Shown one piece after another: positions 13,208 to 42,028 of a stretch of 44,808 nt of DNA; positions within the stretch are counted from its first letter, which is position 1; each line of letters begins with the position of its first letter. The notes beneath the pieces are model-generated. The model was not told the origin of the DNA. It made no database searches and saw only the letters and a list, made by a program, of their open reading frames with translations. A program made the translations under genes and the position numbers. This stretch comes from Actinomycetota bacterium. GTDB lineage: Bacteria > Actinomycetota > Acidimicrobiia > Acidimicrobiales > JAJPHE01. The stretch spans positions 1 through 44,808 of the forward strand of contig JAJPHE010000009.1 of NCBI GenBank assembly GCA_021325435.1, in the 5' to 3' direction.

Positions 13208-16200
13208 TCAGGCCCGCCAGCCGGCCGGCAGCAGCGACGCCACCAGCTCGGGAAGGCGGGCGACGGCGTCGACCTTGTCGAAGCAGCCGGACACGCCCCG
13301 GAGCTCCACCGTGGCCGTCGGGAAGGCGGAGACCAGCGCCACCCGCACTCCCGGGGCCCGGTCCTCCAGCTCGCCGAGGGTCGACAGGCCGTCGCGGTTG
13401 GGCATGAACAGGTCGAGCAGCACCACGTGGGGATGGTGCTCGGCGGCGATGGCCACGCACGCGTTGCCGTCAGCCGCTTCGAACACGGTCGCCCCGGCCG
13501 ACTCGAGGGCCACCCGGAACACCCGGCGGGCGACCGGGTCGTCGTCGCACACCAGGACCACGGCGCCGGCGAGGCGGTTCACGTTCGACAGGTCGACGAC
13601 GGGCTGGCCCAGGGCGGCCAGCCGGCTGGTGGCCAGGGCGGCGAAGTCCTCGGGCGGGCGGGGCTGGGCGAAGTAGTAGCCCTGGGCGTAGTCGCAGGCC
13701 ATCTCGCGCAGCGCCCCCACCTGGTCGTAGGTCTCGACGCCCTCGGCGGTGGCCGACAGGCCGAGCGAGTGGGCCATCTCGATGACCGCGCCCACGATGG
13801 CGCCGCTGCCCCCGGGCAGGTTCATGCCGGCCACGAATGACTTGTCGACCTTGAGCACGTCGACCGAGAAGCGCCGCAGGTAGCTGAGGGAGGAGAACCC
13901 GGTTCCGAAGTCGTCGACGGCCAGGCGCACGCCGAGATCGCGCAGGGCGGCGAGGGTGCTGTCGACGGTCTCGACGTCGTCCATGAGGACGTTCTCGGTG
14001 ATCTCCAGGCCTAGGTGGCGGGGCTCGATGCCGGCGGTGGACAGGCACCGCTCGACCAGCGACACCAGCCCCTTCTCGGAGAACTGCCGGGCCGACAGGT
14101 TCACCCAGGTGGTCAGGTCGGCCAGCTCCGGCACGTCGCGCCACGCCCGGCTCTGCTGGCAGGCCGCCTCGAGCACCCAGCTCCCCAGCGGGATGACCAG
14201 GCCGGTGTCCTCGGCCACGTCCAGGAACTCGATGGGGGCCAGCAGCCCCCGGGTGGGGTGCTGCCAGCGCACCAGGACCTCGGCGCCGACGATGCGCCCG
14301 TCGGACAACCGCACCTCGGGCTGGTAGCGCAACCGCAGCTCGCCCTCGTCGATGGCCCGGCGCAGCTCGTTCTCGGAGTCGAGGACCCCGGGCGAGCGCA
14401 GACTGGGGGCGTAGAACTCCTGCATGGCCCGGCCCCGCTTGCGGGCCTGCTGCAGGGCGGCGTTGGCGTCGCTCATCAGAGCCTCGGCCGTGGCCCGCCC
14501 GTCGGAGGTGGCCACCCCGAGGCTGGCCGTCACCGTCACCTGCCGGCCGCCCACCACGAAGGGGCGGGCGAAGACGTCACGCAACCGCTGGGCGAGGTGG
14601 GCGGCGTCGTCCTGGCCGGCGATGTCCTCGGCGACCACCACGAACTCGTCGTTGCCCTGGCGGCCGAGGGTGTCGGTCGGGCGCAGCACCCCCTCGAGGC
14701 GCGACGACACCTGCACCAGGAGGTCGTCGCCGCCCTCGTGGCCCAGCTCGTGGTTGACCAGGCCGAACCGGTCGATGTCGAGGGCGACCACGGCCACGGC
14801 GCGGTTGGACCGGCGCGACCGCTGCAACGCCTGCGACAGGCGGTCCGACACCAGCGCCCAGTTGGGCAGGCCGGTGAGCGGGTCGTGCAGGGCCCGGTGG
14901 GCCAGCAGCTCCTCGGCCCGGTGGCGGCGCAGGGTGGCGGCCAGCACGTTGGCCAGCGATGTCAGGAACTCGCGGTCATGCGGGGCGAACTGGCGCTCGG
15001 TGGCCGTCACGACCAGCAGGGCGCCGTAGCCCGACCCGTTGTGGCCGGTTATCTCGGCCGACAGCACCGACGCCGCGTCGCCCACCAGATCGGGAGGCCG
15101 GAAGCTGGTGGTCGGGTCCGGCGCCAGGACCCGACCGATGGTGCCGGCAGGCAGGCCGAAGCCGGCCTTAACCAGCAGCCCGCCGCCGGGGGTCGACTCC
15201 AGCACCGCCGCCATGACCGTGCCCAGGTTGTCGGCGGCCACCGCCGCCGCCTCGTCCATCAGCACGGTGAGGTCGGAGCCCTCGAGGGCGAGCTGGCCGA
15301 GCCAACTGATCGAGGTCTGCTGGCGGGCCCGGACCGACAGCTCGGATTCGGCCTCCTTCAGGTCGGAGACGTCCTGGCTGGTCCCTCTCATCTCGAGGGC
15401 GGTGCCGTCGTCGTCGAGCACGGTCTCGCCCCGCAGGTGGACCCAGCGCACCACGCCGTCGGGCAGCACGAGGCGGTGGAACAGGTCGAACGACTCGCCG
15501 GTGTCGAGGGCGGCGGTGGTGGTGGCCACGAACCACTGGCGGTCGTCGGGATGCACCCGTTCGAGGACCCGCTCGTGGGTGAGCTCGAAATCGGCCGGCT
15601 CGAGCTGGTAGAGGCGGTACATCTCGTCGGACATGTAGATCCGGTCCTCGGCCAGGTCCCAGATCCAGCTGCCCAGCCTGGCCAGGTGCTGGGCCTGGGC
15701 CAGATCGGCCCGGCTCTCGGCCAGGACCCGGCTGGTCTCGCGCTCAGCCTCGAGGAGGCGGGCCCGCTCGAGGGCGAGGTCGGCCGAGCGGCCCAGCGAC
15801 TCCAGCAGGCTCATCTCCTCCCCGCCGAAGAACGGGGTCTGGGCGTGGGTCTGCACCACCAGATAGCCGGACAGGAGGCCGACGGCGAGCACGCCGGGCA
15901 CCGGCTCGGCCGTGTAGCGGTCGGCGGGACGGGCCACCTGCACCAGGCCGGCCAGCTCTTCGGCCTCCTCGGCGCCGAGCCCGGTGCGGGCCACCACCTC
16001 GCCGTCCTCGGTGGCGACCAGCGCCCCCCGCCCCCCGACCAGCGTGACGGCGTGGGGCACCACGGCCACGGCCACGTCGACCACGGTGGTGGCGCCGATC
16101 AGGCCGGCCTGGGCCCGGTGGAAGGCCGCCAGGTCGTGCTGGCGCCACAGCATCCGCATCAGCCGGGGGGTGCTGAAGGCCAGGAAGAAGATGAGGACGC

Positions 16201-16819
16201 CGACGAGCGAGATGGTGTCGGCCACCACCACCGCCGCCGACACCGTGCGCCCATTGGTGGTGGCGGCCGACAGGAGAATGGCCCCGGTGAGGGTGGTGCC
16301 GCCGACGGCGAGCAGCCGCATGCGTCGGCGCGACACCGTGGGCTGGTGGCGACCGGCCGACCACAGCCGGGCGATGGCGACCACCGACAGCACCGTCCAG
16401 TCGAGGACGTAGACGACGGTGAGGAGGGCGGCCCAGCCCGAAGGTGTCTGCCCCGGCTTGGGCAGGTTGGGGACGGCGATGGAGCCGACGACCACCACGG
16501 CCGTGGACAGCTGGGCCAGCCGGTTGGACACGTTGCGCGACCGGCCGAACGACCACGCCGCCCGTAGGAAGGTGTAGGGCCACAGCGCCAGCAGGGCCAG
16601 GGCCGCCCGGGACAGGGGACCGGTCGGGTCGATGCCCGTGTGGCGGACCACCCCGCTCAGGGCGATGACGAGAACGCCTACGGAAAAGCCGCTGGCCAGC
16701 CAGCCGGCCGCCTTGCTGCGCCGTTGGTGCCACAGCTGGGTGGAGGACGCCGCGACCGCCAGGAGGACGAGCACCTCAGACCAGTTGAGGGCGTCAACCG
16801 CCCTCGCCAGGCTCTGCAT
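13208..16819 (-). CDS. Membrane GAF/PAS/GGDEF/EAL protein with C-terminal receiver domain
   Basis: This 1203-residue c-di-GMP signalling protein starts with about seven hydrophobic segments (1-225). A GAF-like region follows (about 235-360), then a PAS domain with PAC tail (about 375-490, GSWIWDLAEDRIYMSDEMYRLY), a second GAF (about 500-640), GGDEF (about 650-810), EAL (about 825-1070) and a receiver domain (about 1085-1203). The cyclase motif is GNDEF, so its activity is doubtful. The EAL motif is EVLVRW with ITENVL, DDFGTGFSS and KVDKSFV retained, so phosphodiesterase activity is plausible. The receiver has CDDDP, VVLLDLFMP with the acceptor Asp near 1134, and a conserved Lys. A receiver at the C-terminus means a separate kinase could control the output. 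Confidence 0.9.
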   Translation of the reverse strand: MQSLARAVDALNWSEVLVLLAVAASSTQLWHQRRSKAAGWLASGFSVGVLVIALSGVVRHTGIDPTGPLSRAALALLALWPYTFLRAAWSFGRSRNVSNRLAQLSTAVVVVGSIAVPNLPKPGQTPSGWAALLTVVYVLDWTVLSVVAIARLWSAGRHQPTVSRRRMRLLAVGGTTLTGAILLSAATTNGRTVSAAVVVADTISLVGVLIFFLAFSTPRLMRMLWRQHDLAAFHRAQAGLIGATTVVDVAVAVVPHAVTLVGGRGALVATEDGEVVARTGLGAEEAEELAGLVQVARPADRYTAEPVPGVLAVGLLSGYLVVQTHAQTPFFGGEEMSLLESLGRSADLALERARLLEAERETSRVLAESRADLAQAQHLARLGSWIWDLAEDRIYMSDEMYRLYQLEPADFELTHERVLERVHPDDRQWFVATTTAALDTGESFDLFHRLVLPDGVVRWVHLRGETVLDDDGTALEMRGTSQDVSDLKEAESELSVRARQQTSISWLGQLALEGSDLTVLMDEAAAVAADNLGTVMAAVLESTPGGGLLVKAGFGLPAGTIGRVLAPDPTTSFRPPDLVGDAASVLSAEITGHNGSGYGALLVVTATERQFAPHDREFLTSLANVLAATLRRHRAEELLAHRALHDPLTGLPNWALVSDRLSQALQRSRRSNRAVAVVALDIDRFGLVNHELGHEGGDDLLVQVSSRLEGVLRPTDTLGRQGNDEFVVVAEDIAGQDDAAHLAQRLRDVFARPFVVGGRQVTVTASLGVATSDGRATAEALMSDANAALQQARKRGRAMQEFYAPSLRSPGVLDSENELRRAIDEGELRLRYQPEVRLSDGRIVGAEVLVRWQHPTRGLLAPIEFLDVAEDTGLVIPLGSWVLEAACQQSRAWRDVPELADLTTWVNLSARQFSEKGLVSLVERCLSTAGIEPRHLGLEITENVLMDDVETVDSTLAALRDLGVRLAVDDFGTGFSSLSYLRRFSVDVLKVDKSFVAGMNLPGGSGAIVGAVIEMAHSLGLSATAEGVETYDQVGALREMACDYAQGYYFAQPRPPEDFAALATSRLAALGQPVVDLSNVNRLAGAVVLVCDDDPVARRVFRVALESAGATVFEAADGNACVAIAAEHHPHVVLLDLFMPNRDGLSTLGELEDRAPGVRVALVSAFPTATVELRGVSGCFDKVDAVARLPELVASLLPAGWRA

Positions 16820-32587: not shown

Positions 32588-32647
32588 GCTCTCGCCCCTG
32601 CGTCTCGTCCCTGCCGACCAGGTTGCGGCTCCCGCCAGCCAGTTGCC

Positions 32648-32663
32648 AGGGACCAAGGTCCCT
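32648..32663. promoter_or_regulatory. DosR/DevR-like palindromic box
   Basis: The perfect 7-2-7 palindrome AGGGACCAAGGTCCCT lies between the CBS/PNPOx operon and the divergent diiron gene. It keeps the GGGAC-N-WW-N-GTCCC skeleton of the mycobacterial DosR box (GGGACTWWAGTCCC) with symmetrical changes at the two N positions. The downstream genes are of types found in DosR regulons. A direct link to a DosR homologue cannot be shown, as none is in the window. Confidence 0.5.
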
Positions 32664-32772
32664 TGACCTCTCCAGGTGCATGGAGGTGAGACTGGTTCGA
32701 GTCTCGAACTGCCTTGGTAGCCTTACGCCTCACGGCAGCTGGGCTGGACCGGCGCGAATCGACCTGAGGACC

Positions 32773-33786
32773 ATGAGCACCTACCCCGTCGAGTCACAGA
32801 TCGTTACCGAGTTCACCTGGGACTACGCCGACCGCCGGCCCGCCCTGGCCAAGCTGTACGAGAAGGGCAAGACGTCGCAGTGGAACGCCACCACCGACAT
32901 CGACTGGTCGCCCGAAGTCAACTTCGGCGAAGCCCGCCCGCAGTCGAGCGACGGTCCCGGGCTCGAGGGGATCATCGGCTTCGCCGGTGGGGAATCCCCG
33001 ATTGGCCGACTGGACGATGCGGGGCGCACCCAGTTCCGGTGGGAGTTCCAATCCTGGATGGTCAGCCAGTTCATGCACGGCGAGCAGGGGGCGCTGGTCG
33101 CCACGGCCCGCCTGGTGGAGACCGTGCCTGACCTCGACGCCAAGTTCTACGCCGCCAACCAGGCGGCGGACGAGGCCCGCCACGTCGAGGCCTACGCCCG
33201 CTACCTCAACGAGAAGCTCCGCCACAGCTACCCGATCAGCGACCCGCTCAAGGCGCTGCTGACCGACATCATGAGCGAGTCGCGCTGGGACATCACCTAT
33301 CTGGGGATGCAGATAATGGTGGAGGGCCTGGCGCTGGCCGCCTTCGGGCTCGGCAACGTCATGTTCCAGGATCCGATCATCCGACAGATCACCGACTACG
33401 TCATGCGCGACGAGGCTCGCCACGTCGCCTTCGGGGTCCTCTCGCTCCAGGGTCTGTACGACGACATGGACTCCGCCGAGCTCGCCGACCGCGAGGAGTT
33501 CGTCATGGACGCGGCCCAGCTGATGCGCGACCGGTTCCTCCTCGACGACGTGTGGGAACGGGTGGGCATCGACGTCCAGGCCGGCAAGGAATTCGCCCTC
33601 CACAACCCGTTGATGGGCCTGTTCCGGCAGATGCTGTTCTCCAAGATCGTCCCCAACCTCAACAAGCTGGGGCTGCTCACCGACCGGGTGCGGCCGCATT
33701 TCGAGCAGCTCGGCATCCTCCAGCTGGCCGACCTGCCCGATTCGACCGCCGATGCTGACGAGGGCCTTTCGACGGGCACCGGCTGA
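32773..33786 (+). CDS. Ferritin-like diiron protein (RNR-R2/oxygenase-like)
   Basis: The ATG at 32773 follows TGAGG and gives 337 residues. A full set of carboxylate-bridged diiron ligands is visible: E104 (FMHGEQGALV), E134xxH137 (ADEARHVEAY), E184 (IMVEGLALAA) and E214xxH217 (RDEARHVAFG). The double EARHV motif, 80 residues apart, is characteristic of four-helix-bundle oxygenases. It could oxidise or desaturate an organic substrate; no partner reductase is adjacent. It is followed 65 bp later by another metalloprotein gene, suggesting a shared pathway. Confidence 0.83.
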   Translation: MSTYPVESQIVTEFTWDYADRRPALAKLYEKGKTSQWNATTDIDWSPEVNFGEARPQSSDGPGLEGIIGFAGGESPIGRLDDAGRTQFRWEFQSWMVSQFMHGEQGALVATARLVETVPDLDAKFYAANQAADEARHVEAYARYLNEKLRHSYPISDPLKALLTDIMSESRWDITYLGMQIMVEGLALAAFGLGNVMFQDPIIRQITDYVMRDEARHVAFGVLSLQGLYDDMDSAELADREEFVMDAAQLMRDRFLLDDVWERVGIDVQAGKEFALHNPLMGLFRQMLFSKIVPNLNKLGLLTDRVRPHFEQLGILQLADLPDSTADADEGLSTGTG

Positions 33787-33851
33787 CGGGAAGGGGGCCC
33801 TCCCGGCCTTGGGGCCGTTTTGGCCCGGTACCCAGCGGGAACCCCCAACGT

Positions 33852-34715
33852 ATGGTCTCTCTCGAAACGCAGAGCGCGGCGGTCCCCACGCGCCCGGTGG
33901 AGTTCGACTCCTGGCTCAGCGACCTGCCGAAGCACTTTGCCGCCGGCGGCGACATCGTCATGAGCCACGTCCTGGCCGTCCTGTCGTCGGTTTTCCCCGA
34001 CGGCGAGGACTACTTCGTCCGCTCGGTCGAGGCAGGACGCCCGCAGGTGACCGACCCGCAGCTGCGGGCGGACGTGGACGGCTTCGTCGGCCAGGAGTCG
34101 ATGCACGGCCGCGAGCACCGGGTCCTGAACGAGAGGCTGGCCGAGCTCGGCTATCCCACCAACGCCATCGGCGCCTACGTGCGCTGGCTGTTCCGAACCC
34201 GTGAGCGGATCAAGAACAAGCGTCTCCACCTGGCGTTCACCGCCGCTCTCGAGCACTACACCGCCACCCTGGCCGAAACTCTCCTGAACGACCCCGACGC
34301 CCGGGGCGAGATCGGCCACCCCGGTGCCCGGTATCTGCTCATGTGGCACGCCCTTGAGGAGGCGGAGCACAAGGCGGTGGCCTTCGATGTCTACCGCGCC
34401 CTCGGGGGCACCGAGCGCATGCGGATCGCCGCCATGTGGGTGACCCACGTCCTGTTCGTGCTCGAGACCGGGTTGTGGTCCGCCATCTCGCTGGCCATGG
34501 ACCCAGCCGCCTGGCGCCACCCCTTGCGGGTGGCCCGCAGCGTCTGGAGGCTGCGCCGGTCTCCCTTCACCCGGCCCGCCGCCATCCGCCAGCTGTTCCA
34601 GTACAACCGGCGCGGCTTTCACCCCAACGACCGCGACACCACCGAGCTCATCACCGAGTGGAGGGCCAAGCTGTTCGGCTCCGACGGGGAGCTGACCGAG
34701 CTGCTCGCCAGCTGA
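33852..34715 (+). CDS. PF10118-type metal-dependent hydrolase-like protein
   Basis: The 287-residue helical protein carries the family's repeated His/Glu motifs: FVGQESMHGREHRVLNERL, FTAALEHYTATLAETLL and YLLMWHALEEAEHKAVAFDVY. Together these can hold a di-metal centre. The annotation hydrolase is a family label; members are often found beside fatty-acid, steroid or terpene genes and the chemistry is not settled. A hydrophobic C-terminal segment (WVTHVLFVLETGLWSAISLAM) suggests membrane association. Start ATG 33852 has only a weak ribosome site. A long hairpin follows the stop. Confidence 0.82.
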   Translation: MVSLETQSAAVPTRPVEFDSWLSDLPKHFAAGGDIVMSHVLAVLSSVFPDGEDYFVRSVEAGRPQVTDPQLRADVDGFVGQESMHGREHRVLNERLAELGYPTNAIGAYVRWLFRTRERIKNKRLHLAFTAALEHYTATLAETLLNDPDARGEIGHPGARYLLMWHALEEAEHKAVAFDVYRALGGTERMRIAAMWVTHVLFVLETGLWSAISLAMDPAAWRHPLRVARSVWRLRRSPFTRPAAIRQLFQYNRRGFHPNDRDTTELITEWRAKLFGSDGELTELLAS

Positions 34716-34882: not shown

Positions 34883-36742
34883 GTGACGGCGCCCCAGGTG
34901 CCCGACGATCCCTTCGTGCGCACGGTCGTCCGTATCGCGGTCCACCTGCGTCGCCATCTGCCCCTCTACGCCATCGCCGCGGGTGTCCTGCTGGTGGCGG
35001 CGATCGTCCCGACCGTCGTGACCCAGTCCGGCGGCACCTCGGCGGGGGGCGGCACGGGAACGGTGGGCGCGGGCCAGAGCCCGGCCGCCAACGGGCAGGG
35101 GGCGGCCGGCTCGGGCGCTCTGGGAGCCAACGCTTCGGGCTCGGCCGGCGCCGGCGGTGTCGGCGGCTCGGCGGGCGGAGGGGTCGGCGGGGCCGGCTCG
35201 GCGGCATCCGTGGCCCAGGCCCTCGCCACCCAGCCCCTCGGCAAGCTCAACGTGGGCACCGGCACGACGCGGGGCGGGTTCGCCTGCGCGCCGGGGGTTC
35301 ACCAGATTCCGTGGTCCGAGTACGCCCCGCCCTGCCAGGGCGTGTACTCCGGCGGAAACGGCGGCGCCACGTCACGGGGCGTCACCGCCACCCAGATCGT
35401 CCTGGCCGACCGCGAGTACCAGTGCAACGCCAACTGCCAGGCCGTGCAGCAGTTCGCCGCTCAGGCGGGGGCGGCCCCGGCCTCGGTCGAGGATCCCATC
35501 GACAAGGTCTTCATCGACTACTTCAACAAGACCTTCGAGCTGTACGGCCGCCAGGTGGTGATCAAGCCCTACCAGACGAACGCCGACAGCACCCAGGAGG
35601 CCCTCGGCCAGGGCAAGGCCCAGGCCTGCGCCGACGCCGACGCCATCGCCAACCAGATGCACGCCTACGGCGAGGACGGCTGGGGCTTCGGCGGCGGCGG
35701 CGCACCCGGAAGCGGCCCCTTCTCCGAATGCGCCGCCCAGTACGGGCTGGTCGAGTTCGCCGGCGGCGCCTACTACGACGAGCAGTGGTACCGCAGCCTC
35801 GACCCCTTCGTGTGGAACACGACCATGGAGTGCCAGCGGATCTCCCACATGGTCGCCGAGGTCGGGGCCAAGCAGCTGATGAACAAGACGGCCAAGTGGG
35901 CGGGCGACCCGGTCACCCGCGCCAAGACCCGGCTGTTCGGCACCTACGTCCCCAACAACCCGCCCTACCAGCGGTGCGTGAAGATCGCTCAGGACGACCT
36001 CAAGAACAAGTACCACGACAATCCCGGCTACACCTTCAACTACGTCCTGGACGTGTCGCGCTTCGCCGACCAGGCCTCCCAGGCCATCGTGCAGTTCCAC
36101 TCCGAAGGCGTCACCAGCGTGGTCCTGGCCTGCGACCCGATCTCGCCGGTGTTCCTGACCCAGTCGGCCAAGAGTCAGGGCTACTTCCCGGAGTGGATCA
36201 TCATCGGCACCGCCCTCAACGACGTCGACACCGTCCCCCGCCTGTGGGACGCGACCGAGGTGACCGGGCACCTGTTCGGCCTGTCGCAGCTAGGACCGAC
36301 CAGCAACCTGGCCGGTCCCAACTCCGAGGCGGGCATCACCTACAAGAAGATCACCGGCAAGGACCTGCCCCAGGGGGCGGGCCTGCGCTATCTGCCCATC
36401 CTGCAGGTGTTCTCGTTCCTCCAGGCGGCCGGCCCGATCCTGACGCCGCGGAACATGGCCAACGGGGTCGAGCACCTGCCGCCGGGAGGTGCGGCCGTGC
36501 CCGGCGGCACCCGGGCCTACGCCGCCGGCTACGCCTGCTTCTGCACCAACCCGGACGGCACCCCCGGCATAACCCACACGGCCGTGGAGGACTCGCGCCT
36601 CGTGTACTGGGACGGGGACGGAACGTCCCCCTACGACGGCAAGCGGGGCACCTACGTGGAGATGTACGGCGGAAGTCGCTTCCGCCTCGGCCAGTTCCCA
36701 ACCGGTGACCCGCCCGTCTACCCCCCGAACGATCCTCAGTAG
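34883..36742 (+). CDS. Branched-chain amino acid-type ABC substrate-binding protein, N-terminally anchored
   Basis: The 619-residue protein begins with a basic stretch and a single membrane helix at about 32-50 (LPLYAIAAGVLLVAAIVPTVV) rather than a lipobox. A long Gly/Ala/Ser-rich linker (about 55-115) follows. The rest is a type I periplasmic-binding fold of the Leu/Ile/Val receptor group: ATQIVLADREYQCNANCQAV, KVFIDYFNKTFELYGRQVVI, QAIVQFHSEGVTSVVLACDP and WIIIGTALNDVDTVPRLWDA. The extra cysteines (CNANC, ACAD, EC) suggest disulfides. The GTG start opens an operon with fused permease and ATPase genes. The ligand cannot be told; members of this large group bind amino acids, amides, urea or aromatics. 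Confidence 0.85.
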   Translation: MTAPQVPDDPFVRTVVRIAVHLRRHLPLYAIAAGVLLVAAIVPTVVTQSGGTSAGGGTGTVGAGQSPAANGQGAAGSGALGANASGSAGAGGVGGSAGGGVGGAGSAASVAQALATQPLGKLNVGTGTTRGGFACAPGVHQIPWSEYAPPCQGVYSGGNGGATSRGVTATQIVLADREYQCNANCQAVQQFAAQAGAAPASVEDPIDKVFIDYFNKTFELYGRQVVIKPYQTNADSTQEALGQGKAQACADADAIANQMHAYGEDGWGFGGGGAPGSGPFSECAAQYGLVEFAGGAYYDEQWYRSLDPFVWNTTMECQRISHMVAEVGAKQLMNKTAKWAGDPVTRAKTRLFGTYVPNNPPYQRCVKIAQDDLKNKYHDNPGYTFNYVLDVSRFADQASQAIVQFHSEGVTSVVLACDPISPVFLTQSAKSQGYFPEWIIIGTALNDVDTVPRLWDATEVTGHLFGLSQLGPTSNLAGPNSEAGITYKKITGKDLPQGAGLRYLPILQVFSFLQAAGPILTPRNMANGVEHLPPGGAAVPGGTRAYAAGYACFCTNPDGTPGITHTAVEDSRLVYWDGDGTSPYDGKRGTYVEMYGGSRFRLGQFPTGDPPVYPPNDPQ

Positions 36743-36752
36743 GGGTGGCCCG

Positions 36753-38960
36753 ATGAGTCCCTGGTCCGCCGTGCGGCTTCCGCCGACCCTGGCCCGCCTG
36801 GTCGAGGGCCGCCCCGTCTGGCCGTTCACGTGGGTGGCCGGGTTCCTGCTGGCGTGGGGGGTCCTGGCCCGCCTCCTGCCCCGCGGGCTGCCGGCCGGCA
36901 TTGTCGTGATGGGCCTGGTGTTCGGGGCGTTCTACGCCCTGGTCGCCGCCGGCCTGGTGCTCATCTACCGGGCCAACCGCATCGTCAACTTCGCCCAGGC
37001 TGAGGTCGGGGTGGTCGCCGCCGTCGTGGCCATCGAGCTGGTCGTGCAGTGGGGGGTGAACTACTTCCTCGCTGTCGCCGTCGGCCTGATCCTCGCCCTG
37101 GCCATGGGGGCGGCCATCAACGTGCTGGTGGTCCGGCGCTTCCGCAACAGCCCCCGGCTGATCCTGACGGTGGCCACCATCGGGCTGGCCCAGATCCTCT
37201 CCGGGCTGGCCCTGATCATCCCGGCCTACCTGACCCTCAAGGCCAACAACCACCGCACGTTCAGCACCCCGTTCTCGGCCCACTTCAGCGTCTATCCGGT
37301 CGTGTTCACCGCCAACCACGTGGTGGCGATCGTGGCCGTGGTGGCGGTAGCCGCCGGGCTGAGCGCCTTTCTGCGCCTGACGTCCTACGGGGTGGCCATC
37401 CGCGCCGCCGCCGAGAACAACGAGCGGGCCACCCTGCTCGGGGTGCCGGTGAACCGCCTCGACATGATCGTGTGGGGACTGGCCGGGCTGTTCTCCGCCC
37501 TGGCCGTCATCCTGCGAGTGCCGGTGCTGGGCTTCAACTCCTTCGGCAGCGTCTCCGGTGGGGGCAACGCCCTGCTCCTGCGGACCCTCGCCGCCGCCGT
37601 CATCGGCCGGATGGAGAACCTGCCCCGAACGGTGATGGCCGCCCTCGGCATCGGCGTGTTCGACACCCTCGCCACTTGGACCTCGTCGAACACGACCCTC
37701 GTCGACGCCAGCCTGGTGGCGGTGGTGGTCGTCGCCCTGCTGGCCCAGAAAGGGGCCATCTCGCGGGTGGTGGGGGCCAGCCTGTCGAGTTGGAAGGCGA
37801 TCCGCGAGGTCCGCCCGATACCCAACGAGCTGCGCCGCCTTCCCGAGGTGCGGGCGGGCATCCGGCTGTTCCAGCTGATCGTGGCGGCGGTGGCCGTGGC
37901 CGTGCCGGTGATCCTCAGCACCAGCCAGACCTACCTGGCCGCCCTCGTCCTCATCTACGCCATCGTCGGGCTGTCCCTCCTCGTGCTCACCGGGTGGGCC
38001 GGTCAGATCTCGCTCGGCCAGTTCGCCCTGGCCGGCTTCGGTGGAGCCACCACCGCCCTGCTGTACGGTCGCCACGGGTGGGACTTCTTCCTGGCCCTGG
38101 CGGCGGGCATGGCCACCGCCGCCCTGGTGGCCCTGCTGATCGGGCTGCCCGCCCTGAGGATCCAGGGGCCGTTCCTGGCCGTCACCACCTTGGCTTTCGG
38201 GGTGAGCGCCTCTGAGTACTTCCTCAACGGCGTCTACCTCCCCTGGTTCGTCCAGTCCGACGTCTCGCGGCCGAACCTGTTCGGCCGACTGCCCCTCGAT
38301 CAGGACTGGCAGATGTACTACGCCACCCTGGTCGCTCTGGTCCTCGCCGTCGGGGCGGTCCGCTCCCTACGGCACAGCCGGGTGGGACGGGCCCTCATCG
38401 CCACCCGCGACAACGAGCCGGCCGCCAGGGCGGCCAAGGTCGACACGACCAGGCTGAAGCTGACCGCCTTCATGGTGTCCGGTGCTCTCGCCGGGCTGGC
38501 CGGAGCCCTGTTCGTCGTGCACCAGCACGGGGTGTACCCGAACTCGTTCTCGGCCGACACCAGCATCGCTCTGTTCTCGATGGTCGTCATCGGTGGCCTG
38601 GGCTCGATTCCCGGCGTCATTCTCGGGGCCGTCTACGTGTTCGGCGCCCAGTACTTCCTGTCCGGCGGCTTCTCCTTCCTCGCCAGCGGTGCCGGCATCC
38701 TGGTGCTGTTGCTGTTCTTCCCCGAGGGCCTCGGGGGTCTCGTCTACCGGGCCCGCGACGGGCTGCTCCGCCGGGTCGCCCTTCGCCGCAACATCATCGT
38801 GCCCAGCCTCGTGGCCGACCTACGCGTCGAGGAGAGGGTCGGCGTCGGCGACATATTGGCCGGGGCCGCCTCGACGAACGGATCGGCCAACGGGCACGAG
38901 CCCGAGCCCGTCGGGGCCGCCGCCGGTGGCACCCCGCGCCGCAGAAGGGGGGCGGAATGA
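36753..38960 (+). CDS. Fused LivH-LivM ABC transporter permease
   Basis: The 735-residue product joins both inner-membrane permeases. The LivH-like half (about 45-345) has VFGAFYALVAAGLVLIYRAN, RIVNFAQAEVGVVAAVVAIE and GVAIRAAAENNERATLLGVP, the last being its cytoplasmic coupling loop. The LivM-like half (about 380-670) has LIYAIVGLSLLVLTGWAGQI, SLGQFALAGFGGATTALLYG and RVGRALIATRDNEPAARAAK. The C-terminal tail is cytoplasmic and ends in a Gly/Ala/Arg linker. Start ATG 36753 is 10 bp after the binding-protein stop; its end overlaps the next gene by 4 bp (ATGA). Fusion fixes a one-to-one permease ratio. Confidence 0.9.
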   Translation: MSPWSAVRLPPTLARLVEGRPVWPFTWVAGFLLAWGVLARLLPRGLPAGIVVMGLVFGAFYALVAAGLVLIYRANRIVNFAQAEVGVVAAVVAIELVVQWGVNYFLAVAVGLILALAMGAAINVLVVRRFRNSPRLILTVATIGLAQILSGLALIIPAYLTLKANNHRTFSTPFSAHFSVYPVVFTANHVVAIVAVVAVAAGLSAFLRLTSYGVAIRAAAENNERATLLGVPVNRLDMIVWGLAGLFSALAVILRVPVLGFNSFGSVSGGGNALLLRTLAAAVIGRMENLPRTVMAALGIGVFDTLATWTSSNTTLVDASLVAVVVVALLAQKGAISRVVGASLSSWKAIREVRPIPNELRRLPEVRAGIRLFQLIVAAVAVAVPVILSTSQTYLAALVLIYAIVGLSLLVLTGWAGQISLGQFALAGFGGATTALLYGRHGWDFFLALAAGMATAALVALLIGLPALRIQGPFLAVTTLAFGVSASEYFLNGVYLPWFVQSDVSRPNLFGRLPLDQDWQMYYATLVALVLAVGAVRSLRHSRVGRALIATRDNEPAARAAKVDTTRLKLTAFMVSGALAGLAGALFVVHQHGVYPNSFSADTSIALFSMVVIGGLGSIPGVILGAVYVFGAQYFLSGGFSFLASGAGILVLLLFFPEGLGGLVYRARDGLLRRVALRRNIIVPSLVADLRVEERVGVGDILAGAASTNGSANGHEPEPVGAAAGGTPRRRRGAE

Positions 38961-41900
38961 CCGACGTCGCCGCCGAGACCCTTCCGGCCGATGTGCCGCG
39001 CGTGGAGTCGGGCCTGGGGGCCGACCCCGCATTCAAGAGGTGGGACCCCCGGCGCATAACCCACCCGGCGCCTCTCGCACCGCTGGTGGTGCTGATCGGT
39101 CTGGCCGGCATGGTGCAGTTCGAGCTGTCGGCGTTCAACGTGCTGGGCCCCGAGATCAAGAGCTCCCTGCACCTCAGCTACACCGCCTTCACCGCCGTCG
39201 TCGCCGTGGCCGCCCCCTTCTTCCTGCTCCTCGACATACCGGTCGGCTACTACGGGGACCGGGTGCGTCGCATGCGGATCGCCTCGCTGGGGCTGCTCAT
39301 CTTCGCCGCCTTCTCCGCCCTCACCGGCGTCGCCGGCCTGGCCGGCAGCGTGGCCCTGCTGGTGGTGGCGCGCATTGGGGTGGGAACCGGCGGTGCCTTC
39401 ACGTCCACCCAGAACAGCCTGATCGCCGACTACTACCCCCTCGAGGTGCGGGCTCGCGTCTACTACGCCCACCGCGCCGGGGTCGTCGCCCTCATGGCGC
39501 TGGGTCCTGCCCTGGTAGGCGTGCTGGTGCTCTTCCTGCCGTGGCAGATCCCGTTCCTGGTGATCGCCGTGCCGTCGCTGTTCTTCGTGGCGGGCGGCTT
39601 GCGGCTCTGGGAGCCGGTCAGGGGGTTGCACGAGCGCCGGGCCATGGGAGCCGACGACGTCACCGCGGCCATCGAGGAGGAGCCGGTCTCGTTCAGCCAG
39701 ACCTTCCGCACCCTGTGGAACACACGGGCGGCCAAGCGGATCTACCTCTCGCTGCCCTTCCTGGCCGGCGGGTTCATCGGCATCACCTCCCTCACCAGCC
39801 TCCTCTACCAGCGCCAGTTCCACGTCAGCGCGGCCGGCCGGGGGTTCCTGCAGGCGCTGGTCCAGCCGGGGGAGCTGGCCGGGCTGGTCGTCGCCTTCTT
39901 CCTCGTCCAGCGGGTCGTGGCCCGCGACCCCGGACGCTCGATGGTCTACATCGGGCTCAGCGGAGCGGGGGCCGCGGTGTGCCTGGCCGGCTTTGCCCTG
40001 GCCCCGACGCTGTGGGTCGCCTTCGCCTTCCAGTTCCTCTACGCCGCCGTGCTGTCATCGTTGATCCCGGGGATCTTCTCCGTCATCTCCCTGGCCGTCC
40101 CGCCCCACATGCGCACGCTCGGCTTCGCCAGCGGCTCGCTGTGGATCCTGCTCGGCGTGCCGGTGCTGCCGATCGCCGGGGCGGTCGCCGACAAGGCGGG
40201 GATCCGCATGGGGCTGCTGGTCTTCGTGCCGGTGTTCATGATCGGCGCCCTCATCCTCGCCTCGGCCGGTCCCCACCTCAACCGCGAGATCGAACGGCTC
40301 AGGGCCTACACCCTGACCCGGGCCGAGGCCCTGCGGGCCCGAGCCGAAGGGCGGGCCAAGCTCCTCATGGTGAGAGGGGTGGACGCCGGATACGACGGGG
40401 TCCAGGTCCTCTTCGGCGTTGACCTCGACGTGGCCGACGGCGAGCTGGTGGCCCTGCTGGGCACCAACGGGTCGGGGAAGTCCACCTTGCTGAAGGCGAT
40501 CTCGGGTCTGCTCACTCCGACTGCCGGGGCGATCCTGTTCGACGGGCGCGACATCACCACCCCCGAGCCCCGCCAGGTGGTGGCCCTGGGCCTGTCGCAC
40601 ATGCCCGGCGGCCGGGGAGTGTTCCCCACCCTGACGGTGGCCGAGAACCTCAAGGTGGCGGCGTGGATGTACCGGCGCGACACCGCCTACCTGAAGGAAG
40701 CCACCGACAAGGTCCTCGGCTACTTCCCCGTTCTCCGGCAGCGGTGGAACACGGCGGCCGGCAGCCTGTCGGGCGGCGAGCAGCAGATGCTGAGCCTGGC
40801 CCAGGCCTTCCTGTCCCGGCCCCGACTCCTAATGATCGACGAGCTCTCCCTCGGCCTGGCCCCGACCGTGGTGGAGCGACTTCTCGAGATCGTCCGGGCC
40901 ATTCACGCCAACGGCACCACGGTGATCCTCGTCGAGCAGTCGGTCAACATCGCCCTGCAGCTGGCCGAGCGGGCGGTGTTCCTCGAGAAGGGCGAGGTCC
41001 GCTTCACCGGCCCCACCGCCGAGCTGCTGGCCCGCGACGAGATCCTGCGGGCGGTGTACCTCCACGGCACCGCCGCCGGGCTGGGCGATGGTGAGACCAA
41101 CGGGTCCAAGCCGGCTGGCCGCCGGGCGCGCCGGGCCCGTCCGTCGGGTCCGGTGGTGCTCTCCACCCGGGGCTTGACCAAGCGCTACGGCGGCGTGACC
41201 GCGGTGCGCGACGTCGCCCTCGAGCTGCGAGAGGGGGAGATCCTCGGGCTCATCGGCCCCAACGGGGCGGGGAAGACGACCCTGTTCGAGATGATCTCCG
41301 GTCATGTGGCCAATGACGGCGGTCGGGTCGAGCTGCTGGGTCACGACGTCACCGACCGACCGGCGCACCTCCGGGCGAGAGCGGGCCTGGGCCGATCCTT
41401 CCAGGATGCCCGCCTGTGGCCCGGCCTCACCGTGGCCGAGACGGTGTCTGTCGCCATCGGGGAACGGGTGAACGCGCCGGGCGCACTGCACGCCGTGTTC
41501 GGACTGGCCGACGTGAAGGACGCCGAGGCGGATATGGGCTCGGAGGTCGCAGACATCATCAGCCTGCTGAACCTCGGGGCGTTCCGCGACAAGTTCACGG
41601 CCGAGCTGTCGACCGGGTCTCGCCGGCTCGTCGAGCTCGCCGTCATGGTGGCGGCCCGTCCCAAGGTTCTCCTGCTGGACGAGCCCTCGGCCGGCATCGC
41701 CCAGCGCGAGGCGGAGGCGCTCGGACCCGTCCTGCGCCGGGTGCAGGAGCACCTGTCGTGCTCCATCCTGATCATCGAGCACGACATGCCGCTCATGCGC
41801 TCGCTCGCCGACCGGCTGGTGGCGATGGACACCGGCTCGGTCATCGCCGAGGGACCCCCGGACGCGGTCCTGGCGGACCCTCAGGTGGTGGCGTCGTATC

Positions 41901-42028
41901 TGGGCAGCAACGTGGCCGCCATCGAGCGCTCCGGCAACGGCGCAGCCAAAGCCCGGCGGCCGACCACCCGGCGCCCCGCCACCAAGCGGGCCGCCGCCAC
42001 CCGGTCGGGCCGAACCTCCACTCGGTGA
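38957..42028 (+). CDS. MFS transporter fused to LivF-type and LivG-type ABC ATPases
   Basis: One uninterrupted 1023-residue frame joins three modules. Residues about 35-440 are a 12-helix MFS carrier, with motif [12 protein letters not shown] and a central loop rich in Glu. Residues about 470-700 are a LivF-like ATPase (Walker [10 protein letters not shown] near 500, LSGGEQQ, Walker B LLMIDE). Residues about 730-985 are a LivG-like ATPase (Walker [10 protein letters not shown] near 767, signature LSTGSRRL, Walker B VLLLDEPS), followed by a Lys/Arg/Thr-rich tail. ATPases should pair with each other and energise the LivH-LivM fusion upstream. What the MFS part contributes is unknown: a second substrate path, an anchor for the ATPases, or a sensor. 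Starts by 4-bp overlap with the permease. Confidence 0.9.

Follow-up and report, generated by a model that had tools for sequence, protein, structure and literature searches.

The operon described here lies on the forward strand of a window of 44,808 nucleotides (contig JAJPHE010000009.1 of assembly GCA_021325435.1, from a bacterium of the Acidimicrobiales) and consists of three genes in a row. The first (34883..36742) encodes a substrate-binding protein of 619 residues with one N-terminal membrane helix, residues 28-46 forming its only hydropathy peak, and family alignment suggests a remote type I periplasmic binding protein. That alignment included 35 of the 37 listed binding proteins; eight of its 35 rows reach Peripla_BP_6, the row of the window not among them, and no PDB sequence matched the family at 0.01. 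The second gene (36705..38960), whose true start may lie slightly downstream, encodes a fused LivH-LivM permease of 751 residues with two BPD_transp_2 stretches (Pfam, 209.5 bits). Its stop codon is overlapped by the ATG of the third gene (38957..42028), which encodes an MFS-LivF-LivG fusion protein of 1023 residues. The fusion is thus part of a complete Liv-type operon, with binding protein and fused permease directly upstream, as an earlier note on this DNA had stated. Farther upstream, two genes at 32623-34715 give a weak match to AurF/ferritin-like proteins and a match to PF10118 (metal-dependent hydrolase), and a 1203-residue PAS-GGDEF-EAL protein with a C-terminal receiver domain is encoded on the reverse strand at 13208-16819.

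The same note had proposed that an MFS carrier and both Liv-type ATPases form a single polypeptide, and this is borne out by the translation of 38957-42028 as one frame of 1023 codons with no internal stop. Pfam identifies MFS_1 (PF07690; 100.7 bits against a cut-off of 33.4), two ABC_tran stretches (209.7 bits in total) and, at the end of the second, BCA_ABC_TP_C above its cut-off; G+C by codon position is coding-like throughout the MFS/LivF joint (40157-40666). The Spinster-like MFS domain (residues 36-445, 39062..40291), delimited by Pfam, profiles and hydropathy, has 12 transmembrane helices, and the hydropathy scan gives 12 peaks there and two weaker ones in LivF, a soluble domain. The even-numbered loops, on the inside, contain 32 lysines and arginines, against 5 in the odd-numbered loops. 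With 12 peaks and this charge bias, both termini of the MFS domain should be cytosolic, where the ATPases must sit.

A linker of 20 residues (40292..40351) leads to the LivF-type ATPase domain (residues 466-705, 40352..41071), which is followed by the LivG-type domain (residues 731-988, 41147..41920) carrying BCA_ABC_TP_C; both ATPases were assigned by Pfam and profiles. The nearest solved chain to LivF is 1ji0, and LptB and 1g6h are among those nearest to LivG. The LivG signature reads LSTGSRR, and most of the family has STGxRR, versus the usual LSGGQ. Among NCBIfam models, the LivF equivalog, the LivG equivalog and UrtD all fall below cut-off; UrtE and LptB exceed it, but their scores sum over two ATPases. 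In the AlphaFold2 model, residues 413-463 are predicted as a single helix comprising TM12 and the linker, the latter being a straight extension of the former, with block confidence of 72-85 from residue 421 onward. The MFS bundle itself is modelled at low confidence (blocks at or below 60) because the alignment had no MFS rows.

Architecture and distribution of the joint

The MFS-LivF joint occurs in 98 distinct open frames, that of the window included, and one of these, from Embleya sp. NBC_00888, stands in a record described as complete. The possibility that the fusion arose by an assembly error or a frame shift, for which we found no support, is therefore ruled out for practical purposes, its probability being close to nil. 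In 96 of the 98 frames LivHM is part of the same chain or is encoded on the same strand no more than 200 bp away, and in another it is 216 bp away; the last is truncated by a contig end. LivG is present on the chain in 82 frames and absent from it in 15, and one frame is of type E, as defined below. Among the 65 MFS-LivF loci whose stretch exceeds 9 kb, 45 have a binding-protein match, and more distant binding proteins occur at some other loci, such as those with Peripla_BP_6 beside L274 and L213.

Five architectures can be distinguished. Type A is that of the window (binding protein; LivHM; MFS-LivF-LivG), and type B is the same without the MFS domain (binding protein; LivHM; LivF-LivG). Type C combines MFS-LivF with LivHM-LivG, type D joins LivHM, LivF and LivG in one chain, and type E is a single natural chain of 1728 residues, LivHM-MFS-LivF-LivG (L197:5374-10557). 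Upstream of this one-chain transporter are a binding protein, a gene that resembles an alpha/beta-hydrolase by eye and an AMP-binding enzyme of the acyl-CoA synthetase type. The suggestion that fixing the two ATPases as a pair in cis is the point of the fusion does not fit this variety, for type C carries LivG on the permease chain, and the linker between LivF and LivG can be as short as 11 residues or as long as 80. The MFS-LivF linker is nearly fixed by comparison: as drawn by profiles, the gap at 84 joints is 20 residues in 54, 21-22 in 19, 16-17 in two and 11 in nine, an overall range of 11-22. In all loci scanned, moreover, the fused MFS sits on LivF and never on LivG alone.

This near-constant linker, the predicted continuous TM12 helix and the invariable choice of LivF are what one would expect if the MFS domain were a non-transporting membrane platform that anchors LivF (and with it LivG) beside the permease, setting stoichiometry and assembly. 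We regard such a platform as rather unlikely, although not far-fetched, for reasons that concern the residues of the carrier and the independent survival of its parts, both considered below.

Three further full-length matches lie in the genome of the window, one of them where a contig begins. The same genome has another two copies of MFS-LivF with LivG as a separate open frame, two copies of LivF-LivG that lack the MFS domain, and free MFS genes. The architecture is also found in other genomes, which the earlier note had made a test of its reality. Across 119 genomes of the class, that of the window included, 37 match at 1e-100, and 32 of the 119 have a match that spans the MFS domain to the end of LivF (query start at or before 60 and reach of at least 690, counted from the match listing), the other five matching over LivF-LivG or part of it. 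At 1e-85, 16 of the 246 genomes sampled from the phylum match, 13 of them spanning MFS-LivF and six of those 13 lying outside the class. These proportions, like those for loci, are valid for the present samples only, because genomes were sampled either by kinship or evenly, and most loci were chosen by score. No match at 1e-75 was found among 200 genomes of the phylum of Stella (the genome of L016), and one of 151 genomes from the phylum of a Dehalococcoidia record (the genome of L064) matches at 1e-70, with several architectures. Of nine genomes reached through other loci, five match at 1e-40, over LivF and/or LivG only. Among plasmid records 513 match, none covering 80% of the query; the best plasmid match listed is that of Embleya sp. 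NBC_00888, with MFS-LivF followed by LivHM-LivG.

The importer half resembles HAAT/LIV importers (LivFGHM-K, UrtABCDE) in its binding protein, two BPD_transp_2 halves and LivF/LivG ATPases with BCA_ABC_TP_C. It differs from them in that the permease halves are fused, the ATPases share a chain and an extra 12-helix MFS domain is attached to LivF. Secondary-type carriers that are joined to, or work with, another activity are exemplified by the LplT-Aas fused transporter and the ArsA-ArsB pump, but neither is known to have a second, complete ABC transporter attached. When a whole-length profile was compared with PDB sequences, no chain with both MFS and ABC parts appeared among the best 60 of 134 matches; some ABC exporters align from profile position 359, inside the MFS end, with no stretch passing on its own. 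A literature search, mostly outside subscription journals, yielded no paper on an MFS joined to ABC ATPases as judged by title and start of abstract, and the excerpt of PMC1853089 that bears on "ABC domain fused" concerns ordinary ABC systems. The domains are of known kinds, and their combination in an MFS-ABC importer is, to our knowledge, undescribed.

A Spinster-like carrier domain

By itself the MFS domain of the window gave no match to PDB sequences at 0.01. A family profile built from 29 of 30 aligned rows (L125 was dropped) matches HnSpns (6e8j) best, at 2.4e-40, followed by SPNS1 (2.4e-28), a D-galactonate carrier (2.9e-22) and SPNS2 (from 3.2e-22), a kinship judged among solved proteins only, so that closer unsolved families are possible. 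In HnSpns, according to passages of PMC9440201, Asp41 pairs with Arg122, Arg42 is a substrate residue, Glu129 is the intracellular proton master switch, and Asp87, Arg91 and Asp142 form the charge relay of motif A. A mycobacterial Spns is the subject of a preprint (PMC13192786).

Most of these charges are retained. The earlier note had called for a check of the charged residues of the MFS domain, and among 83 fused rows their conservation is high. Glu56 in TM1 (39122..39124) occupies the place of Asp41, which is acidic in 73 rows; Asp101 and Arg105 of motif A, between TM2 and TM3 (39257..39271), correspond to Asp87 and Arg91 and are Asp in 79 rows and Arg in all 83; Arg139 in TM4 (39371..39373), at the place of Arg122, is Arg in 73; and Asp158 (39428..39430), the counterpart of Asp142 in the charge relay, is Asp in 82. 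An EPxRG-like stretch after TM6 is also common to Spns carriers and the MFS part. The proton switch of HnSpns, however, is absent: the place of Glu129 is Gly146 in the window and is acidic in only 6 of the 83 rows. The place of Arg42 is Leu57 in the window and Arg in 32 of 83. Because neither Glu129 nor Arg42 is a general feature of these proteins, we term the domain Spinster-like only; it also differs from Spns carriers in its attached ABC ATPases and binding-protein-dependent importer.

This pattern bears on the platform in two ways. Against it, each of the gating charges is retained by between 73 and 83 of the 83 rows. In its favour, the Asp of motif A and the Arg of TM4 are missing from L139 and L140, members of the window's own clade, and L140 lacks the TM1 acid as well, which is why a scaffold role stays among the rivals.

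The missing switch also invites the idea of an MFS driven by ATP, in which LivF would deliver a power stroke through the TM12 rod in place of an ion gradient. There is precedent for a primary-active reading in the ArsB-ArsA pair, and both the short rod of near-fixed length and a switch position without an acid in 77 of 83 rows are compatible with it. We nonetheless give this idea only a slim chance. Most free MFS relatives lack Glu129 as well (only 3 of 19 have Glu), which means that its absence does not go with fusion, and on this ground we dropped the idea that in fused proteins ATP had taken over from the proton switch. In addition, the same ATPases already serve a full permease, free MFS copies exist, and in the 9 of 84 joints whose linker is 9 residues shorter the phase of a helix would be lost. 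An aspartate of the linker (place 444; Asp in 81 of 83 rows, Glu in the window) was likewise considered as a coupling residue and rejected, because it is also present in 15 of 19 free MFS genes, with gaps in 3.

Co-divergence, separate persistence and neighbouring genes

In 41 operons that have all parts, mean distances are 1.31 for the MFS domain, 1.60 for the binding protein, 1.04 for the permease, 0.51 for LivF and 0.64 for LivG. MFS distances correlate best with those of the binding protein (r 0.52), then with those of LivF, to which the domain is covalently joined (0.45), the permease (0.41) and LivG (0.31); for binding protein and permease r is 0.68, or 0.61 as a partial correlation given LivF and LivG. 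The partial correlation between MFS and binding protein is 0.41 given LivF and LivG, and 0.35 when the permease is added as a control, values reached by none of 999 permutations in either case. The fused ATPases thus account for only part of the parallel between the divergence of the MFS domain and that of the binding protein. When the operons are split by position of the binding-protein gene, the value for MFS against binding protein is 0.385 in 19 operons and 0.402 in 22; with the permease controlled as well, the link is gone in the 19 (0.033, p 0.35) and persists in the 22 (0.33, p 0.011). Such tracking would be unexpected of an inert anchor, although partial Mantel tests set a low bar and shared inheritance can imitate co-specialisation.

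Each half can also be found by itself. On a tree of 112 LivF domains, built by a quick method with SH-aLRT support, the presence of the MFS domain requires at least five changes of state, and one starred clade unites nine type A rows with nine of the 13 rows of type B. A second tree, of 101 of 102 MFS domains (the fragment L262 was left out), places five free MFS genes (L248-L252) at five points within the fused clade, some of the forks being weakly supported. L248 ends 136 bases short of a contig end, and a stop was counted in the match of L251; L263 follows LivHM, is truncated at a contig end and was not counted as free. These free genes keep the same key residues as their fused relatives; L252 belongs to the genome of the window, and L250 adjoins a LivHM-LivF-LivG operon on the opposite strand. 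Since free MFS genes are nested among fused ones, and operons without an MFS domain among those that have it, neither half needs the other to persist. Both observations speak against the platform, since free carriers with the same residues survive without ATPases and MFS-less importers of the same clade do without an anchor.

Other relatives show further arrangements. At L254, L256, L257 and L259, a free Spinster-like MFS gene recurs beside genes that resemble, by eye, an FtsH-like protease and a large membrane protein. In L127:3731-7411 and L159:5169-8228, LivF groups with the clade of the window and the MFS domain with another clade, as if MFS domains had been exchanged between paralogues.

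Neighbouring genes were compared through alignments covering 93 of the 116 nearest neighbours of MFS-bearing operons and 26 of the 31 of MFS-less ones (a further alignment, A4, held 36 of 58 listed rows). The commonest families among the 93 are TetR (7) and Peripla_BP_6 (5). Among the 26, aldehyde dehydrogenase is commonest (5), adjoining the MFS-less operons L123, L198, L201, L204 and L209. Genes of acyl-CoA metabolism stand near a minority of loci, MFS-bearing and MFS-less alike; all but the AMP-binding enzyme of L197 and a thiolase of L248 were named by eye. We looked for a single substrate in these neighbourhoods, and no one answer emerged.

A cluster of large membrane proteins adjoins MFS-LivF-LivG operons at 13 loci (L134, L136, L137, L162, L167, L172, L173, L174, L176, L177, L178, L194 and L195) and none of the MFS-less loci, which are fewer; the member at L167 is a TgpA-type transglutaminase. 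Genes for DUF58 proteins or unnamed lipoproteins occur at several of the 13 as well, MoxR is found at L178, and 11 are without a binding-protein match. Might these 13 loci represent a cell-envelope version of the system? At four other loci (L125, L126, L184 and L189) an additional protein of one cluster is encoded near the operon, with Peripla_BP_6 in L126; that of L184, which by eye seems to have no signal peptide, could perhaps be a cytosolic sensor.

How the two transporters may work together

The reading that we favour, and to which we give about an even chance on the basis of sequence comparisons, is that the locus encodes a complete LIV-type importer together with an autonomous, co-specialised Spinster-like MFS carrier, tethered to it one-to-one through LivF. 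The importer of the LIV (HAAT) type would comprise the binding protein, the fused LivH-LivM permease, LivF and LivG, with the carrier covalently attached to LivF. From what is known of the family, the LivF/LivG pair would hydrolyse ATP to take up the solute delivered by the binding protein. The carrier would be held next to the permease, its last helix predicted to continue into the ATPase as a short, near-fixed rod, and would transport, by an alternating-access cycle of its own, a solute related to that of the importer. The fusion, its constant neighbours, the conserved gating charges, the survival of each half by itself and the co-divergence are observed; transport, ion coupling, direction and substrate are all inferred here. 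Most likely it would move a related or derived amphiphilic compound, by exchange or efflux, or provide a second route for the same compound. Several findings weigh against this reading: the HnSpns proton switch is missing and the place of Arg42 is Leu in the window, so that proton coupling need not follow the HnSpns scheme; key MFS residues are eroded in L139 and L140; the link between MFS and binding protein disappears in one sub-set of operons once the permease is controlled, while the binding protein is tied more closely to the permease; and the neighbouring genes favour no one substrate. The suggestion of the earlier note that the MFS part works with the importer gains support, by inference, from the co-divergence of MFS domain and binding protein.

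Alternatively, the two transporters might act in series on one molecule, the MFS domain bringing an amphiphile to LivHM, or taking one from it, within the membrane or across it. Spinster proteins are lysolipid carriers (PMC9440201), and this kinship, the co-divergence of MFS domain and binding protein, and the acyl-CoA metabolism genes near some loci would all suit such handling of lipids. Those genes, however, are a minority feature shared with MFS-less operons, and sister operons manage without the MFS domain, so that we judge action in series to be distinctly improbable. With no better than an outside chance, the whole could also be a hybrid machine, in which ATP hydrolysed by LivF and LivG would drive both LivHM and, through the rod, the MFS domain, so that transporters from two unrelated superfamilies would exchange one solute for a related one at the expense of ATP.

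The usual teaching keeps ABC and MFS transporters apart, as superfamilies that each have their own source of energy. In the operons described here they form one inherited unit, found in many genera, repeatedly lost and split, and in one case drawn together into a single chain of 1728 residues. If the halves are functionally coupled, these proteins would offer a natural test bed for an ATPase that drives or gates an MFS carrier, and would represent a new way for bacteria to link the uptake of one compound to the movement of another.
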